A stretch of DNA of 6,219 bases, from assembly GCA_946481265.1 (NCBI GenBank), contig CAMLNE010000257.1, positions 1 to 6,219 on the forward strand, given 5' to 3'. The translations under genes were made by a program, and so were the position numbers. The notes beneath the pieces are model-generated. The model had not been told where the DNA came from. It worked only from the letters and a program-made list of their open reading frames with translations, and did no database searches. Origin of the DNA: an uncultured Panacagrimonas sp. Its GTDB lineage: Bacteria > Pseudomonadota > Gammaproteobacteria > Nevskiales > Nevskiaceae. Positions 1 to 6,219 of this stretch are shown piece by piece (positions within the stretch are counted from its first letter, which is position 1; each line of letters starts with the position of its first letter).

Positions 1-513
1 GCCGATGCGCGACAGGTGCTGGGCCATGCCCAGGCGATCCATGCAGTTCATCATGGCCGCCTGCGTGATCGCCGTGCCGTAGCCGTAGGCGGCCATGTGC
101 GAGTTGTTCATGTTGGCGCCGAACTCGTAGTGCCGCAGCGGCACCAGCGCGGTGACCAGCTGATGGCGCGCCGCCAGCGGCAGGCTGCGCAGCAGGTCGC
201 GCTTCTCCACGAAGTCGAGCTGGCGGTCCAGGGCGTCCTGCTGCTTGGCGCGAGTGATCGTGTAGGCGCCGTAGTAGTACTGGCGTGGATCCTTCAGCGC
301 GTACCAGTCCTTCATCACCACCGCAGTGCGGCGCACGTCGTAGAGATCGCGCTCCGGGTCCCACAGCGGCTTGTAGTGGAAGTTCGTCGTCGGCTGGATG
401 TCGAACGCGCTTTCCTGGTAGCGCGTGGCGTTCTTGTCGCCGAAGCGCTTGGCCAGATGCTCGTAGGTATTGCGGATCGGCTTGACGCCGGTGGTGCGGA
501 TTTCAACCGTCAT
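1..513 (-). CDS. dmpL: Phenol hydroxylase oxygenase beta subunit, DmpL/P1 (partial, N-terminal 171 residues)
   Basis: This is the 5' part of the gene for the beta subunit of a multicomponent (soluble diiron) phenol hydroxylase, which converts phenol to catechol in the cytoplasm. In this family the beta subunit is the structural partner of the diiron alpha subunit (DmpN) and has no metal site. The reading frame opens with ATG at 513 and stays open to the left edge (exactly 171 codons). AGGAG at 521-525 lies 7 bases upstream. I recognise family stretches such as NFHYKPLWDPERDLYD (residues 44-59), DPRQYYYGAY (75-84), LVPLRHYEFGANMNN (123-137) and MDRLGMAQHLSRIG at the edge. Full-length family members have about 330 residues, so roughly half is missing. 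It follows dmpK by 57 bp and is very probably co-transcribed from the sigma-54 promoter at 914-929. The toluene-4-monooxygenase-type beta subunit is the main alternative, but the dmpK neighbour favours phenol hydroxylase. Confidence 0.95.
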   Translation of the reverse strand, partial: MTVEIRTTGVKPIRNTYEHLAKRFGDKNATRYQESAFDIQPTTNFHYKPLWDPERDLYDVRRTAVVMKDWYALKDPRQYYYGAYTITRAKQQDALDRQLDFVEKRDLLRSLPLAARHQLVTALVPLRHYEFGANMNNSHMAAYGYGTAITQAAMMNCMDRLGMAQHLSRIG

Positions 514-570: not shown

Positions 571-855
571 TCATTCCGTCACCCCCGGCGTGCCATAGCG
601 CCACTTCGCCTGGTCGATATCCATCGCGGTCTCTTGCTCGCGCGTCAGGTACACCACGCGGTTGGCACGGCAGAACTCGCGGTAGGCCGCGAGCGGCATG
701 ACCAGTTCGGTCATCAGGTCCGGACTGCCCACGCCGAACGCGAACTCGACGAAACCGCGATCCGTGATGCGATGGAAACGGACATAGCGGGCCCGCGCGT
801 CGTCCGGGGACAACAGCGGCGTCGATACCTGCTGGCTTGACGATGGGGGCACCAC
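571..855 (-). CDS. dmpK: Phenol hydroxylase accessory/assembly subunit DmpK
   Basis: This is the small first gene of the phenol hydroxylase operon, 94 residues with a GTG start. In the Pseudomonas dmp system DmpK is not part of the turnover complex. It binds the oxygenase and is thought to help assemble the active iron-containing enzyme. The sequence shows the family pattern: RYVRFHRITDRGFVEFAFG (residues 23-41), an acidic/hydrophobic segment LMTELVMPLAAYREFCRANRV (47-67) and a C-terminal KWRYG (84-88). The length is normal for the family (about 90). Two GTG codons stand in tandem (855-853 and 852-850). GGAGGA at 861-866 lies 5 bases from the first and 8 from the second, so the exact start is ambiguous by one codon. 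It is preceded by the sigma-54 promoter at 914-929 and followed by dmpL. Confidence 0.92.
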   Translation of the reverse strand: MVPPSSSQQVSTPLLSPDDARARYVRFHRITDRGFVEFAFGVGSPDLMTELVMPLAAYREFCRANRVVYLTREQETAMDIDQAKWRYGTPGVTE

Positions 856-1179: not shown

Positions 1180-3099
1180 ATGTCCACGCTGCCCCCCTCC
1201 TCACCGCCACCGCGCACCCCGCTGGCCAGCCGGCCGCCCGTGGGCGATGCCGGCATCCCGCTGCCGGACAACACCGACCTCGTCTCGCGCATCCACTTCT
1301 CGCCGCAGGACGGCCGCATCTGGCTGGACGACCAGCGCATGCTGCTGATGCACGCCTCCGGTTTCGGCGTGCTGCGACGCGAGCTGATCGAGAGCCTGGG
1401 AGTCGAGCGCGCGCGCGGCCTGATGACGCGCATCGGCTACAACTCCGGCGCCAACGACGCCCAGCTCGCCCGCAAGTTGCGCCACGACAGCGACGCGGTG
1501 GACATGATCCACGTCGGCCCGCAGCTGCATATGCTCGAGGGCGTGGGCACGGTGATCCCGGTGCGCACCGATGTCGACGAGGAGCACGGCAGCTACCACG
1601 GCGAGTACATCTGGCAGGGCTCCAGCGAGGCCGAGGAGCACATCCGCATCTACGGCCTGGGCGCCGAGCCGGCGTGCTGGATGCAGATCGGCTACGCCTC
1701 CGGCTTCATCAGCCGCTTCATGGGCAAGCCCATCCTGTTCCGCGAGGTGGAGTGCAAGGCACAGGGCCACGAGCACTGCCGCATCGTCGGCAAACCGGCC
1801 GAGGAATGGGCCGACGACGCGGCGGGCGACCTGCGCTTCCTGCGCGCCGATCCGCTCACCGGTGGCGTGGCCACCAACGCGCGCAAGCGCCGGAGCGCCG
1901 AGGCCGATGGCGGTCGCACGCATGCCGAGCCGCCCCTGCTGGCGCCGCCGTCCGCCTCATCGCCCGCGGTGGAACTGCAGCCGCTGAGCGACGACGCGCC
2001 GGTGCTGCCGTTCGGCCGCGAGGACGTGGTCGGGGTCTCCGCCGGCTTCAACGCCGTCTGCCACAAGATCCGCCGCGTCGCGGACACGCGCGCCACGGTG
2101 CTGTTCCTGGGCGAAAGCGGTGTCGGCAAGGAAGTGCTGGCGCGCAGCCTGCACCGCATCAGCCCGCGCGGCGAAGGCGCCTTCATCGCCGTCAACTGCG
2201 CCGCCATCCCCGAGAACCTGGTCGAGTCCGAGCTGTTCGGCGTGGAACGCGGCGCCTTCACCGGCGCCACTCACTCGCGCGCCGGCCGCTTCGAGCGCGC
2301 CGAGGGGGGCACGCTGTTCCTGGATGAGATCGGCATCCTCAGCAACACCGCGCAGGGCAAGCTGCTGCGCGCCCTGCAGGAACGCGAGGTCGAGCGCGTC
2401 GGCGGCAGCGGGATCATCCGGGTCGACGTGCGGGTGATCGCCGCCACCAACCTGGACCTGATCGAGGAAGTGAAGCAGGGCCGCTTCCGCGAAGACCTGT
2501 TCTTCCGGCTGAACGTCTTTCCCATCCGCGTGCCCGCCCTGCGCGACCGCCTGGAAGACATCCCGGTCTTCATGAACCACTTCCTGCGCAAGTTCTGCCG
2601 GATGCACGACCGCCGCGTCGCCGGCTTCACCGGCCGCGCCATCGACCACATGCTCAGCTACCACTGGCCCGGCAACATCCGCGAGCTGGAAAACGTCGTC
2701 GAGCGCGGCGTGATCCTGGCGCCCGACGGCGGCGCGATCGACTCCGTCCACCTGTTCGCGGGCGGCGAGCAGGTGGAGTCGAGTCACCTCAGCGTCGGCG
2801 CGGGCGGCATGCTGCGACGCGCGGCCGCATCGTCGGGCGCGGAACGCACGAAGAAGGACAGCGCCGCGACCACGCCCGATATCGACCCCGACCGTCTCAA
2901 CCGCGTGCGCAGCAAGATCACCCACCTGCTGGCCGGTGTGGGAAGTGACGAAAACGGCACGACCTCGCTGGACGAGATCCAGGACGCGCTGGTGCAGAGC
3001 GCGGTGCGCAGTGCCAAGGGCAACCTGGCGGCCGCGGCCAGGATGCTGGGGATGACGCGGGCGCAGCTGGTGTACCGGCAGAAGACCAGAGACGCTTGA
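1180..3099 (+). CDS. dmpR: Phenol-responsive sigma-54-dependent transcriptional activator, DmpR/MopR/XylR family
   Basis: This is an NtrC-type activator of 639 residues that binds phenols directly and then drives open-complex formation by sigma-54 polymerase at the divergent dmpK promoter. The aromatic-sensing domain with its V4R part spans about residues 33-210. His117 and Trp145 align, at a constant offset of +11, with the phenol-contacting His106 and Trp134 of MopR. Cys166, Glu189, Cys192 and Cys200 align with its structural zinc site (Cys155, Glu178, Cys181, Cys189). The AAA+ domain carries Walker A GESGVGKE (311-318), the sigma-54 contact loop GAFTGA (358-363) and Walker [11 protein letters not shown] (376-385). 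A Fis-type helix-turn-helix is at the C-terminus (about 595-635). The linker between sensor and ATPase (about 211-280) is long and rich in Pro, Ala and Ser. ATG 1180 has no clear Shine-Dalgarno. The frame is open back to 1057 but has no ATG there, and homology begins at about residue 31, so 1180 is the best start. Confidence 0.95.
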
Positions 3100-3109
3100 C
3101 CGGTTGCCT

Positions 3110-3133
3110 GTGCGGAACGAAGGCGCGCCGCAC
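3110..3133 (+). terminator. Weak hairpin after dmpR, possible terminator
   Basis: GTGCGG (3110-3115) and CCGCAC (3128-3133) can pair around a 12-base loop, 10 bases after the dmpR stop codon. No T run follows, so if it ends transcription it does so inefficiently or with Rho. Only the position makes it worth recording. Confidence 0.25.
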
Positions 3134-3520
3134 CCGTCTTCACGATCGGTTTGCGGGGGCGGCTGCCGACCCTGGCCCCGTATTGGACTCCAGTCGTGCC
3201 CGCGCGTGGAACGAACGGCGGTGGAGTCGGCGCGATCGGCGTGATCTCTACGCGGTGTGCCCGGCCGGAGACACTCCCGCATCTCGCGATCGGCTCCGTA
3301 ATCCCTTGCGCGCCGGTTGTCGATCGTTCATGAGGGGCGTCTAATCCGGGAACGGGGAGCAGTCCGGAACGCGCACAAACGCGCGGGCCGGCTGGGCAGA
3401 AAACCAAAAAGACCGTCTCGCGGATCAGGGAGCAGGAGACATGCGCCGATGTCTTGGCCATCAGCGGGTTGGCTTGGGAGATCGCGGCCCATCTTTCGCA
3501 GCCGCAACTGCCGTGCTCCG
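3134..3520. other. Gene-free spacer between dmpR and the cassette array
   Basis: I see no gene in this stretch. The short open frames on both strands have no recognisable domains, no convincing ribosome sites and arginine/proline-rich compositions typical of out-of-frame G+C-rich DNA. I looked specifically for an integron integrase on either strand and found no tyrosine-recombinase motifs. A pair of 5-bp inverted arms, GTCTC (3415-3419) and GAGAC (3436-3440), is too short to interpret. The segment may hold the decayed edge of an older insertion. Confidence 0.5.
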
Positions 3521-3551
3521 GTTTAGCGGACAGGCTCGCGGTTTAGCGGAC
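3521..3551 (+). repeat. Two direct repeats of GTTTAGCGGAC, 20-bp period
   Basis: Identical 11-mers lie at 3521-3531 and 3541-3551, just before the first cassette boundary. Each begins GTTTAGC, one base away from the integrase core box GTTRRRY. Tandem directly repeated integrase-binding boxes occur in attI sites, so these could be part of a degenerate attI. They could equally be chance or remnants of another element. Confidence 0.5.
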
Positions 3552-3561
3552 GGTGTTCGTT

Positions 3562-3580
3562 ACCTAATTAGGTGTTATAC
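3562..3580 (+). other. Left boundary of the cassette array: palindrome plus core site GTTATAC
   Basis: ACCTAATTAGGT (3562-3573) is a perfect 12-bp palindrome directly followed by GTTATAC (3574-3580). GTTATAC is the reverse complement of GTATAAC, the box that closes the first cassette at 4153-4159. The crossover in integron recombination falls after the G of this box, so the first cassette should begin at 3575. I cannot fold the sequence to the left into a full attC. The junction may therefore be an attI, a relict of one, or a non-canonical genomic insertion site. Confidence 0.6.
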
Positions 3581-3587
3581 CCGTGAG

Positions 3588-3594
3588 AGAGGAG
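3588..3594 (+). promoter_or_regulatory. Shine-Dalgarno that favours a TTG start for the first cassette gene
   Basis: AGAGGAG ends 6 bases before TTG 3601. The in-frame GTG at 3583 lies 5' of this site and has no purine-rich sequence ahead of it, only the GTTATAC box. The ribosome site therefore points to 3601. Confidence 0.6.
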
Positions 3595-3600
3595 AAAGCG

Positions 3601-4146
3601 TTGGATAGCTTCGCGGTAGCCATCCATCGCGCTGGCGAATTCTTCATGCATTGCCTGTGGCTACAGGGGCAGATGGTTGATCTCATAATCCTCTTCAAGG
3701 ACCCACTGCTCAGGACTGCCTTTATCAACTCACCGTCTGTCGTGCCCGATGAGATGGTTGCCGAGCGGGCCAAGTACTGGGAGAAGGACTTCGGTCCTAT
3801 ACGGACCGAGTTCGAAAGGCTCTTTGGTTCAAGAATGAAGGCTGAGCACGTTGAAGATCTCGAGGCCGTCTATCTGCTTCGAAACGCAATCGCGCACTGC
3901 CATGTGTCCATGGCGCGAGACTACTTCTTGTTCCGTCCAGGTCGGGGAGAGAAGCAAATATCAGCGATGGCGAGCGTTTTGAAGCTCGATCCGATAGAGA
4001 ATCCATCGAGACCAATCATGATGAAGCTCTCGCTCAGTGATGAGGCTCGCTTCATGCGTGACTTCAATCGACTCAAGGGCCTTGATGAAGACTGCTTCAG
4101 CAATATCGCGGCTTCACTCGGGGTTCCGCATGGGCGCATTCGGTAG
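3601..4146 (+). CDS. Cassette-encoded HEPN-like hypothetical protein
   Basis: This is a 181-residue soluble protein, or 187 residues if translation starts at GTG 3583. I do not recognise a named family. The clearest motif is LLRNAIAHCH at residues 92-101, counted from the TTG start. R94-N95-x3-H99 matches the R-x4-6-H signature of HEPN domains, in the usual setting of a helix with an RNxxxH core. HEPN proteins are often RNases in toxin-antitoxin, abortive-infection and other conflict systems, or non-catalytic nucleic-acid partners. Long predicted helices precede the motif (about 2-35 and 50-80), compatible with an all-helical HEPN bundle. No signal peptide or membrane segment stands out. The gene fills the first cassette, and its stop codon is 6 bases before the attC. 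No antitoxin-like partner lies in the same cassette. The start is chosen by the AGAGGAG at 3588-3594. Catalytic activity is inferred from the motif only. Confidence 0.8.
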   Translation: MDSFAVAIHRAGEFFMHCLWLQGQMVDLIILFKDPLLRTAFINSPSVVPDEMVAERAKYWEKDFGPIRTEFERLFGSRMKAEHVEDLEAVYLLRNAIAHCHVSMARDYFLFRPGRGEKQISAMASVLKLDPIENPSRPIMMKLSLSDEARFMRDFNRLKGLDEDCFSNIAASLGVPHGRIR

Positions 4147-4152
4147 TCGCGG

Positions 4153-4252
4153 GTATAACCAGCGGTTCAAGCCGACGGTCATGCCCCCCGCGAGTAGTTC
4201 GGTTGATGGGCGTAGGCTGTGGCATGACCGCGGCTTAACCTAGGTGTTGGAC
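4153..4252 (+). other. attC site of the first cassette (100 bp)
   Basis: Outer boxes are GTATAAC (4153-4159) and GTTGGAC (4246-4252). The inner arm GGTTCAAGCCG (4164-4174) pairs with CGGCTTAACC (4231-4240), leaving one unpaired C, the extrahelical base that directs integrase in folded attC. The stem continues inward with CGGTCATGCC (4175-4184) against GGCATGACCG (4221-4230), a perfect 10-bp match. This is the best-folded attC in the window. The crossover is expected between 4246 and 4247. Confidence 0.9.
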
Positions 4253-4276
4253 CCCTGGCAGTCGAGCCGCACCAGT

Positions 4277-4282
4277 GGAGGA
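4277..4282 (+). promoter_or_regulatory. Shine-Dalgarno of the ankyrin-repeat gene
   Basis: GGAGGA ends 9 bases before ATG 4292. It decides the start against the in-frame GTG at 4244, which lies within the attC and would make translation span the cassette junction. Confidence 0.7.
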
Positions 4283-4291
4283 CAGCTGACG

Positions 4292-4906
4292 ATGTTGCAG
4301 AAGGACATCTCGTCGTTCATCAAGGCCATCCGTGGCCATGACAACACTGCTGTGCGTCGCATGCTGGACGAGATGCCAGAGTTGATTGCGTCGAAAGCGA
4401 AGAGCCCTCCCAAGAAGGACGATGGTCAATCGCCTTTGCAGGTCGCCTTTAAGGTCGGGAACTTCGAGGCCGCCTCGGTGTTGGTCGAGCGAGGCGCTGA
4501 TCCCGACTACATCGAAGTCTCGGACATCAACGAGTGGCGAGCGCCCGTTCTGCACGATGCACTTCGAGCCACGATCTTCAACTGCAAGACGCTCCAGAAG
4601 GATCCGGCACAGTTCGAGGTTGCCTTAGCGTTGGTACGGAGGCTGCTCGAGCTTGGCGCAAAGCCGAACAAGGAAGACTCCTATGGCAATTCAGGAGCCA
4701 TGCGCGCTGCGCTGGATGCGCGCCAGTTGATCGCACACCCGGCCGTGGATAAAGGTCCCGAGGGGAGTGCCTGGCAGATCTCACGTGTGTTTTCGTTGCT
4801 CCGTGAATTCGGCGCAGACATCGACCATCCAACCGAGCGCAGAGCGGCGGTTCGGAAGATGCTTGCATCCTGGAACCTTGAGGAGCTGGTCGGTGCTTCC
4901 GTATAA
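4292..4906 (+). CDS. Cassette-encoded ankyrin-repeat protein
   Basis: A 204-residue protein built from degenerate ankyrin repeats, the helix-turn-helix units that mediate protein-protein contacts. Visible units are at about residues 5-32 (FIKAIRGHDNTAVRRMLDEM), 45-75 (GQSPLQVAFKVGNFEAASVL followed by VERGADPDY), 84-128 (with a 17-residue insertion, ending LVRRLLELGAKPNKED) and 133-180 (ending VFSLLREFGADIDHPT). The helix-ending signatures ERGADPD, ELGAKPN and EFGADID are diagnostic. No enzymatic domain, signal peptide or membrane segment is visible, so it is probably a cytosolic binding or inhibitor protein. Single-domain bacterial ankyrin proteins sometimes act as immunity or anti-effector factors, but nothing here proves that. 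It occupies the second cassette alone and has its own good ribosome site. The partner is unknown. Confidence 0.88.
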   Translation: MLQKDISSFIKAIRGHDNTAVRRMLDEMPELIASKAKSPPKKDDGQSPLQVAFKVGNFEAASVLVERGADPDYIEVSDINEWRAPVLHDALRATIFNCKTLQKDPAQFEVALALVRRLLELGAKPNKEDSYGNSGAMRAALDARQLIAHPAVDKGPEGSAWQISRVFSLLREFGADIDHPTERRAAVRKMLASWNLEELVGASV

Positions 4907-4942
4907 GTGAGCCAGCGTGCAACGCTCTCCCGCCAATTTCGG

Positions 4943-5047
4943 GTCCAACAAGCTAATGCAGCCGAGGTCTCTGCCGCCGGTGAGCGTTCAGTTGACCCGC
5001 GAGGTCAGCGTGGGCGACAGAGCCCCGGCTGATCGCAGGCGTTAGGC
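4943..5047 (+). other. attC site of the second cassette (105 bp)
   Basis: Outer boxes are GTCCAAC (4943-4949), the exact complement of the cassette's opening GTTGGAC, and GTTAGGC (5041-5047). The inner arms GCTAATGCAGCCG (4952-4964) and CGGCTGATCGC (5026-5036) pair through CAGCCG/CGGCTG with an extra G bulging in the left arm. CTCTG and CAGAG extend the stem. The left arm region (4951-4978) matches the next attC (5701-5728) at 26 of 28 positions. The 36 bases between the ankyrin stop and this site hold nothing recognisable. Confidence 0.88.
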
Positions 5048-5053
5048 ACTCCG

Positions 5054-5698
5054 ATGGCTCGCCGACCAATTCATCCCGATGTTGTCGCCGAGGTTCTAAT
5101 CGAATCCCGCCGGCGCTGCTGCATTTGCTTTGGTCTCAACCGCGACACGTCCATCTGCCAAGGCCAAATCGCTCATCTGGACGGAAAGTCGAGCAACAGC
5201 GTGAAGGAAAATCTAGCGTTTCTTTGCTTCAACCACCATGACAAGCTCGACAGTTCAACCCGGCAAAGTAAGAACTTCACTGTGCTAGAGGTCAAGCGCT
5301 TTCGGTCTGAGTTGCGAGACGCGATCCGCGAGGCTTTCTCGATCCCCGTGACATTCGGTGATGCGGAGACGTCCGAGAAAGGTGAGCTTTCAGGGCATTA
5401 CATCCGCGCAGGTGGGGTCGACAGTGCAGAAATTAAGATCCTGCGAATGAAGGGCAATCGCTATCACGTCTCCGGGCTGGCCCTGCATGGAACCGATCGA
5501 GCTGGCGGTCCAAACTTGGGCGAGATCGACTTCGTCGCTGAATTGGACGATGGACTACTGTTCATTGACTCCGGCTTTAAGCCCCCGTACCGCCTTTGGC
5601 TGCGGGTGCGTGATGGAAAGCTTGTCGCAGAAGAGGAGAATGAATTCGGATATTTCGGGGTAGGAGCGCGATTCGGAGGCACCTATGAACGCGCCTAA
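5054..5698 (+). CDS. Cassette-encoded HNH-nuclease-like protein with beta-rich C-terminal domain
   Basis: A 214-residue protein in two parts. Residues 1-95 look like an HNH/McrA-type zinc nuclease module: C22-x2-C25, then IAH41, N53, and C58-x2-H61 followed by H62. This follows the C-x2-C...H...N...C-x2-C/H order of the HNH fold, with His replacing the usual fourth zinc cysteine. The IAHLDGK and ENLAFLCFNHHDKLD stretches are typical. Residues about 112-214 form a separate glycine- and aromatic-rich, beta-predicted domain (GHYIRAGG, GNRYHVSGLAL, YRLWLRV, GYFGVGARFGGTY). It resembles small barrel domains of uncharacterised proteins, but I cannot name it. HNH enzymes cut DNA in restriction, homing and defence; the second domain may be a sensor or binding module. 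ATG 5054 is 6 bases after the opening attC box, with no strong Shine-Dalgarno. The stop codon lies inside the closing attC box, as in many cassettes. Nuclease activity is inferred. Confidence 0.85.
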   Translation: MARRPIHPDVVAEVLIESRRRCCICFGLNRDTSICQGQIAHLDGKSSNSVKENLAFLCFNHHDKLDSSTRQSKNFTVLEVKRFRSELRDAIREAFSIPVTFGDAETSEKGELSGHYIRAGGVDSAEIKILRMKGNRYHVSGLALHGTDRAGGPNLGEIDFVAELDDGLLFIDSGFKPPYRLWLRVRDGKLVAEEENEFGYFGVGARFGGTYERA

Positions 5699-5791
5699 CC
5701 AGCTAATGCAGCCGACGTCCCTGCCGCCCGGGCTCACGTCGATCGTTGATGTTCCGTCGCGGCAGGGCCGCGGCTGATCGCGGTGTTGGGC
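5693..5791 (+). other. attC site of the third cassette (99 bp)
   Basis: Outer boxes are GCCTAAC (5693-5699), the exact complement of the cassette's opening GTTAGGC and containing the TAA stop of the HNH-like gene, and GTTGGGC (5785-5791). The inner arms GCTAATGCAGCCG (5702-5714) and CGGCTGATCGC (5771-5781) are the same as in the preceding attC. CCCTGCCGC and GCGGCAGGG extend the stem perfectly. Bases 5785-5796 also form a 12-bp palindrome, GTTGGGCCCAAC, across the start of the next cassette. Confidence 0.88.
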
Positions 5792-5814
5792 CCAACGACT
5801 CGTACCTTGATCAC

Positions 5815-6159
5815 ATGACTGACTACACAGATCCCGCACGCACTCTTGCTCTTCTCAATGAACTCGAGGGCGTCGGCATGAGCAACGATGCATTCTCAAT
5901 TCTTCACCATTTCCAGAGCCCAGAAACTATTCAGAGCCACACAAGCTATTGCCGACTGCTGTCGGAGGAGGGGTCACGATTCCGGACGAGAAGCAATCCG
6001 CTAGTACAGAGGCGACTTGAAATGGTGTTGGCTATGTACAGAGCGGGTGGGTTCAAAGAAACGACCTCAGCACTCTTCGAGCACCTCGCTCATGCGGCAG
6101 TACTAGAGGTTCCTTTTGATCGTCGCCCCTTGGCGGAGCAGCTACGTGACGCTCAATAA
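5815..6159 (+). CDS. Cassette-encoded hypothetical protein, 114 residues
   Basis: A small soluble protein in the fourth cassette that I do not recognise. It looks mainly helical, with no transmembrane segment or signal peptide. Possible helices are at residues 7-20 (ARTLALLNELEGVG alone is clearly amphipathic), 24-50 and 62-96. There are no zinc-binding pairs or obvious catalytic motifs, and only one cysteine (C46). ATG 5815 is the first ATG after the cassette's opening box and is chosen for that reason. There is no clear Shine-Dalgarno, and the frame runs further upstream only by crossing the attC. Codon use matches the other cassettes. The stop is 6 bases from a putative insertion-sequence end, and no closing attC box follows. 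The C-terminus appears complete, but I cannot rule out that a short original tail was replaced. Confidence 0.75.
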   Translation: MTDYTDPARTLALLNELEGVGMSNDAFSILHHFQSPETIQSHTSYCRLLSEEGSRFRTRSNPLVQRRLEMVLAMYRAGGFKETTSALFEHLAHAAVLEVPFDRRPLAEQLRDAQ

Positions 6160-6165
6160 TCGTCG

Positions 6166-6219
6166 TGAACCGCCCCGGTTTTCCCGGAGGCTCGTTGATG
6201 TGAGTCACGCCGCGAGGGC
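6166..6219 (+). mobile_element. Probable terminal inverted repeat and start of an IS3-family insertion sequence (runs off the right edge)
   Basis: From 6166 the sequence starts TGAACCGCCCCGG, continues through a T4 run and reaches CCCGGAGGCT at 6183-6192. This resembles the outer end of IS3-family elements, whose tips begin with TG and whose first gene follows closely. The identification rests on recalled similarity to such ends, not on a search. The second end and the target duplication are outside the window. It lies where the fourth cassette's attC should begin, so it probably interrupted or replaced that site. Confidence 0.55.
6200..6219 (+). CDS. Possible first codons of an insertion-sequence transposase gene (OrfA), partial
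   Basis: GTG at 6200 opens a frame (six complete codons visible) 9 bases after GGAGG at 6186-6190. IS3-family OrfA genes commonly begin this close to the element's left end. Too little is present to identify a protein, so this is an inference from the putative inverted repeat at 6166-6192. Confidence 0.22.

Follow-up and report, generated by a model that had tools for sequence, protein, structure and literature searches.

A cassette array probably lacking its integrase downstream of dmpR in an uncultured Panacagrimonas sp.

In integrons, the bottom strands of the attC sites fold and are cut by the integrase IntI, and by analogy an array left without IntI would be static. Here we describe a 6,219-bp stretch from an uncultured Panacagrimonas sp. 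(the window, positions 1 to 6,219 of contig CAMLNE010000257.1) that very probably carries an authentic integrase-less cassette array, i.e. a cluster of attC sites lacking integron integrases (CALIN), directly downstream of a dmpR-dmpK-dmpL phenol hydroxylase locus. As the array is oriented here, attI and intI belong at its left end. One survey counted 2961 CALINs and 2760 complete integrons, with a caution about draft assemblies inflating the CALIN counts, and gave an average of almost 6 attC sites per CALIN (PMC9024848). Three routes to CALINs have been proposed, off-target insertion among them (PMC8618304), cassette insertion at genomic attG sites has been described (PMC12901181, PMC12444791), and in Xanthomonas about half of the genomes are reported to have CALINs outside the platform locus (PMC12444791). 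In 2009, cassettes were proposed to be linked to industrial-waste catabolism, in that case with the catabolic genes located inside cassettes (Koenig et al. 2009, PMC2669170). These statements are as given in extracts of the sources cited.

The array resembles such CALINs in having at least two attC sites, co-oriented cassettes and no intI beside them in the visible 6.2 kb, as well as in its small number of cassettes, and it differs from other CALINs only by its place beside dmpR and by the IS3-family end that cuts it. The initial annotation had regarded the array as unusual for beginning without attI and intI, which was not borne out, CALINs being approximately as numerous as complete integrons in the above survey. 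The Xanthomonas CALINs found away from ilvD/intI likewise occupy non-platform loci, whereas the DmpR of the window is nearer to Panacagrimonas. The Tar Ponds cassettes (PMC2669170) share with the window the presence of cassettes and industrial-waste catabolism in one setting, but the catabolic genes there lie inside the cassettes, while here they stand beside an array whose cassettes contain other genes. We consider the array to be one more CALIN, in this case of a lineage close to Panacagrimonas. Its left boundary, apparently made by IntI, can be read, and such a boundary is useful for asking by what route an array comes to lose its integrase or to escape from it.

Three attC sites and a chain of cassettes

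The three attC sites, all within 1.64 kb, were evaluated with a covariance model built without the window. The model was derived from 21 intI-bearing loci of 21 genomes belonging to the same class as the Caballeronia genome G001 (locus L001). Box pairing and stem searches on the array sides gave 37 candidate attC sites in 13 of the 21 loci, and six of these were dropped by eye as doubtful. A portion of the remaining 31 (25 sites from 12 loci) was used in the model, with six omitted to shorten the alignment, while the site L121_1634 was kept although its 3' arm was misaligned. All three window sites, which had been described as structurally complete, were accepted by this model (Table 1), as the covariance-model check proposed with that description had predicted. 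The same places on the minus strand scored 10.8, 5.3 and 12.7 bits for attC1, attC2 and attC3, respectively, and the 18 window matches at E <= 10 other than the three sites themselves (filters off) had at most 12.7 bits. The E-values of the model are rough. Its specificity was determined on 74 other loci, which had been collected for their relatedness to DmpR rather than as integrons; in these 1,225,558 bases, with default filters, the best matches reached 14.1 and 13.6 bits. Judged by their predicted structure (R''/L''-L'/R' hairpin, AAC...GTT ends, strand asymmetry), the three are genuine attC recombination sites.

Applied to 14 integron loci, 12 of them training sources, the model returned 78 sites at E <= 0.01 with scores of 22-68 bits, a count which includes the training sites of those loci, matching by construction; the window sites therefore fall inside this range, in its lower half or middle. 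Matches were also obtained in four of the nine integron loci without a site in the model (L113, L125 and L128 at E <= 1; L122 at E <= 0.01), with none in the other five (L117, L118, L119, L120, L129), and attC sites beyond the training set were recovered in L113, L125, L128 and G252. Arm identities among the window sites were 0.66, 0.70 and 0.84, similar to the within-array means of 0.59-0.78 in eight other arrays. The mean identities of the window arms to those eight arrays were lower (0.52-0.67), with a best single pair of 0.73.

The R'' box of the attC in each of the three complete cassettes is matched without mismatch, as reverse complement, by the left box of that cassette, and the three cassettes form a head-to-tail chain co-oriented with dmpR. 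Positions 3100-6219 were shuffled 3000 times for either of two box patterns, and a three-cassette chain with stems never arose under either pattern; for boxes alone the counts were 0 of 3000 with the stricter pattern and 1 of 3000 with the looser one. The box and stem limits of this test were chosen after the sites were known. A stricter script, with a GTTRRRY box on both sides, found two of the three sites because the left box of cassette 1 is GTTATAC. A fourth cassette opens at GTTGGGC and is incomplete, with no occurrence of its partner GCCCAAC from 5797 to 6165. Four co-oriented small genes had been claimed, and four open reading frames on the plus strand were indeed found, the fourth without an attC in the window. 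The array had also been placed about 475 bp after dmpR, in agreement with the end of dmpR and the first box (Table 1), and the end given for it, 6165, directly precedes the inferred terminus of an insertion sequence (IS).

The right end of the window matched plasmid IS sequences with up to 88% identity, many of them annotated as IS3 family transposase. Among the matches listed, 23 of 30 begin at 6164-6166 (38 plasmid records in all), i.e. 5-7 bases after the stop codon of the cassette 4 gene. With an IS terminus right behind this gene, the fourth attC would have been displaced by the IS or would lie beyond it.

Table 1. Features of the 6,219-bp window, from left to right.
Feature	Position	Strand	Remarks
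dmpL-like phenol hydroxylase subunit	1..513	-	3' end cut by window; PF02332 E 3.4e-35
dmpK-like phenol hydroxylase subunit	571..855	-	PF06099 E 1.2e-20
dmpR/mopR-type sigma-54 activator	1180..3099	+	XylR_N, V4R, sigma-54 activation and Fis HTH domains
Spacer from dmpR to array	3100..3573	.	474 bp
Two perfect 13-bp direct repeats CGGTTTAGCGGAC	3519..3551	+	20-bp period; just upstream of array
Left crossover box GTTATAC opening cassette 1	3574..3580	+	directly after palindrome CCTAATTAGG (3562-3573)
Cassette 1	3575..4246	+	box pair GTTATAC 3574 / GTATAAC 4153; attC1
Cassette 1 gene, HEPN-like (putative), 181 aa	3601..4146	+	TTG start; RNAIAH motif
attC1	4153..4252	+	covariance model 42.2 bits, E 2.5e-9
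Cassette 2	4247..5041	+	box pair GTTGGAC 4246 / GTCCAAC 4943; attC2
Cassette 2 gene, ankyrin-repeat protein, 204 aa	4292..4906	+	ATG start; PF00023 E 3.4e-6 (scanned from GTG at 4244)
attC2	4943..5047	+	covariance model 34.2 bits, E 2.4e-7
Cassette 3	5042..5785	+	box pair GTTAGGC 5041 / GCCTAAC 5693; attC3
Cassette 3 gene, HNH-like (putative), C-terminal beta-rich domain, 214 aa	5054..5698	+	stop codon inside attC3 R'' box
attC3	5693..5791	+	covariance model 32.5 bits, E 6.4e-7
Cassette 4, incomplete	5786..6165	+	opens at GTTGGGC 5785; without own attC in window
Cassette 4 gene, 114 aa	5815..6159	+	family matches none better than E 0.065
IS3-family element end (IS51-type in some annotations), starts TGAACCGCCCCGG	6166..6219	-	runs off window; first 54 bases

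The left junction and the origin of the array

A tblastn search with 16 IntI proteins yielded no match in the window above chance level (the best, E 0.044, lies inside cassette 3) and no IntI remnant in the spacer; as a control, L124 was searched with this set and gave its intI with the full score. The place beside the first cassette where a complete integron carries intI is taken by the spacer and dmpR. The statement of the initial annotation that the spacer has no integrase thus holds, and the sequence next to the array shows no clear attI. In the sampled genomes of the class of G001, 137 of 369 had an intI match above the curated cut-off, a proportion that seemed high.

The left boundary of the array lies exactly at an IntI-type crossover box. 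Because the box of cassette 1 pairs exactly with the R'' box of its own attC, the junction was in all likelihood made by an IntI-type event and not by a random break. The only covariance-model match at the left end is the palindrome at 3562-3573 (8.2 bits, E 0.65, both strands). We scored the 18 bases left of 3574 with a position weight matrix (PWM) of the attC right half and obtained -17.9. Every one of the 31 training sites scored higher (-3.4 to 16.4 in leave-one-out), as did 74% of 8708 background boxes. The flank therefore does not resemble half an attC, which speaks against excision of the array from a longer one, and a truncated longer array was rejected on this score and the palindrome match. 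The PWM test was not sharp for every site, since the score of attC3 was matched by 12% of background boxes, compared to 0.01% for attC1 and 0.15% for attC2.

The left flank was also compared with 14 presumed attI sites, whose positions had in turn been deduced from the box closest to each intI. Its attI PWM score of 1.69 was within the leave-one-out range of these sites (-5.7 to 16.5), with 4 of the 14 scoring lower, and corresponded to a background fraction of 0.07. Anchored alignment against 1500 GC-matched boxes gave background fractions of 0.04 (mean score) and 0.05 (best score); all of these values are nominal and uncorrected. In mean alignment score to the other attI sites, 13 of the 14 nevertheless exceed the mean score of the flank to the 14, with a margin below one tenth in two cases; in best score, 11 of the 14 exceed the flank. 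From these comparisons the left flank appears weakly attI-like. The 13-bp repeat just upstream (CGGTTTAGCGGAC) was not found elsewhere in the sequences searched.

With the attC sites accepted and no intI or clear attI beside them, the reading already offered by the initial annotation, a CALIN arisen by integron loss or rearrangement or by delivery to a secondary site, was upheld. We rank loss of intI beside a decayed attI above delivery in trans, with rearrangement, an unseen intI and assembly error making up the rest. Our leading but tentative account is a remnant platform in which intI was deleted or replaced, with the 60-odd bases left of 3574 representing the decayed attI. The intact IntI-type left boundary, the direct repeats and the attI scores are consistent with this, and the AT-rich flank CCTAATTAGGT, set in GC-rich DNA, is by eye like two of the 14 presumed attI sites (L114, L130); the lack of an IntI remnant in the spacer, the higher alignment scores of most presumed attI sites and the derivation of nominal values from few, inferred sites argue the other way. 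Possible, if somewhat less probable, is that a secondary (attG-type) site downstream of dmpR received the cassettes through an IntI acting in trans, in which case the left flank would be native. This agrees with a left flank that is not attC-like, and both insertion at attG sites and the off-target route to CALINs have precedents in the literature introduced above. The primary paper on attG is reportedly that of Loot et al. 2024. Four consecutive cassettes would demand block transfer or repeated events, however, neither an empty site nor a right junction is readable, and the closest dmpR relative in genome contigs is 60% identical among the matches listed. In favor of this route, a short GNT core is reported to suffice for IntI1 (PMC10127599, in extract).

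Three points weigh against a CALIN. An attI may still be present, since the left flank is nominally attI-like (background fractions 0.04-0.07). The absence of the integrase covers 6.2 kb only, and with a right flank that ends inside the IS an intI farther away, or right behind the IS, is conceivable. We consider an ordinary complete integron with a hidden intI, such as one on the far side of the IS or one moved by an inversion, to be quite unlikely; the frequency of intI among the sampled genomes favors it, but the side where intI is expected consists of 3.5 kb of dmp genes and spacer. Finally, the array contig may have been wrongly joined to a dmp contig at about 3574 during metagenome assembly. 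The contig is short, the GC content steps at the junction, cassette arrays are reported to assemble badly (PMC9024848, in extract), and the protein clusters of the window DmpR and of cassette 1 were each observed on one contig and that of cassette 3 on four. Such a chimera is improbable, the least credible of the alternatives weighed here, as the junction coincides to the base with a crossover box and does not lie in an attC repeat shareable with other arrays, and the base-exact box pairing of cassette 1 spans 3574-4159.

Cassette genes and their possible expression

Cassettes 1 and 3 point to two poorly described protein families. For cassette 1, 33 family proteins were found and 30 were aligned with the window protein; R94, N95 and H99 (RN-x3-H) are invariant in all 31 sequences. 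An R-x4-6-H motif in a helical domain is the mark of HEPN ribonucleases, and the structure model of the protein is all-helical (predicted local distance difference test score, pLDDT, 93) without a significant match to folds of the PDB. Pfam HEPN_RiboL-PSP matched 4 of the 31 members at E <= 0.1 (best E 0.0027), the window protein not among them, and PADLOC RTasHEPN matched 12 of the 31 at E <= 0.01. Together, motif, model and profiles weakly suggest a HEPN-like protein. One family member (P0143, 248 aa) has an N-terminal extension with a HicB-like antitoxin domain (PF15919), and one member with PF15919 was also observed in the Pfam scan; the extension hints that the family may have a toxin-antitoxin-like role.

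The cassette 3 protein has 172 relatives, and 30 taken from the best 120 of the 172 were aligned with it. C22, C25, H41, N53, C58 and H62 are invariant in these 31 sequences, Pfam HNH_3 matched 8 of them (best E 0.0014), the window protein not included, and a PHROG HNH profile matched with E 2.3e-4. In the structure model the N-terminus has low confidence while the C-terminal beta-rich domain is well modelled; against known folds this domain gave weak lipocalin/fatty-acid-binding-protein-like matches, none of them significant. Motif, profiles and model again point weakly to an HNH-like protein. At E <= 0.01, family members matched the PADLOC profiles PDC-M68A (24 of 31), the 'Effector' endonuclease PDLC00749 (21 of 31) and ZorE (17 of 31).

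Homologues of both proteins were observed on plasmids. On an E. coli plasmid, a cassette 1 homologue (39% identical) is followed directly by an 'anti-phage transmembrane ATPase', and a cassette 3 homologue (40%) is separated by one gene from qatD of the Qat anti-phage system on the At plasmid of Agrobacterium fabrum. The five E. coli records and the ten Agrobacterium records are of equal identity within each set and probably represent one lineage each, and no attC matches were found in these plasmid loci. We take anti-phage defence as a candidate role of cassettes 1 and 3, a lead from gene neighbours and profiles and not an assigned function.

No sigma-70-type promoter was found in 3000-6219 (0, shuffle mean 1.1), and the two terminator-like sites in this region (shuffle mean 2.9) are confined to the minus strand; read-through from dmpR is therefore possible. 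Any expression of the cassettes would come from such read-through after dmpR or from promoters inside the cassettes. The cassettes would have been laid down by IntI-type recombination and would stay immobile unless an IntI in trans acts on the attC hairpins. An unlikely extension of these ideas is that two nuclease-type defence genes (HEPN-like and HNH-barrel) were delivered off-target, with transcription of dmpR replacing the integron promoter and the sigma-54 regulator gene serving as a fixed platform without an integrase.

The phenol hydroxylase neighborhood and other loci

The dmpR gene is divergent from the start of a minus-strand phenol hydroxylase operon (dmpK-like, dmpL-like). The nearest relatives of the window DmpR are 81-84% identical, and the named ones among them are Panacagrimonas (Nevskiales), which makes a Nevskiales-like gammaproteobacterium the probable host. 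In the dmpR-like loci with aligning DNA the similarity of dmpR ends shortly upstream of its stop codon, and what matches the spacer in the fetched loci is limited to stretches of 16-32 bp, none with an E-value better than 0.005. GC content drops where the array begins, from 0.69 to values of 0.54-0.56.

The suggestion that the phenol operon provides a meaningful context for the cassettes did not hold. No attC matches were found in the eight other dmpR-like loci (L001-L006, L133, L134), and the four cassette genes gave no match to a family for aromatic degradation. As a single case with 0 of 8 other loci carrying attC, the adjacency to dmp carries little weight, and the phenol genes look like chance neighbors of the array. 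Among the titles and abstract openings of the papers retrieved, no report of a dmp-flanked cassette array was found; passages of PMC8461059 and PMC2864759 use the relevant words in unrelated senses only.

The DmpR upstream site had no match with up to three mismatches in the window. A sigma-54-type -24/-12 element with one mismatch (TGGCAC-N5-GTGCT) was observed upstream of dmpK at 914-929 on the minus strand, where it would fit a DmpR-controlled operon; the assignment depends on its position, as there were 6 matches with up to two mismatches in the window against 2.8 expected.

An array similar to that of the window was observed in genome G252, with nine attC matches over approximately 20 kb of one contig and, as the best intI, a sub-threshold fragment on another contig. 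Two of the attC matches in this CALIN reappear with unchanged scores at a distance of about 15.5 kb (L139 16683-17467 and L140 12172-12956), as if a segment had been duplicated.

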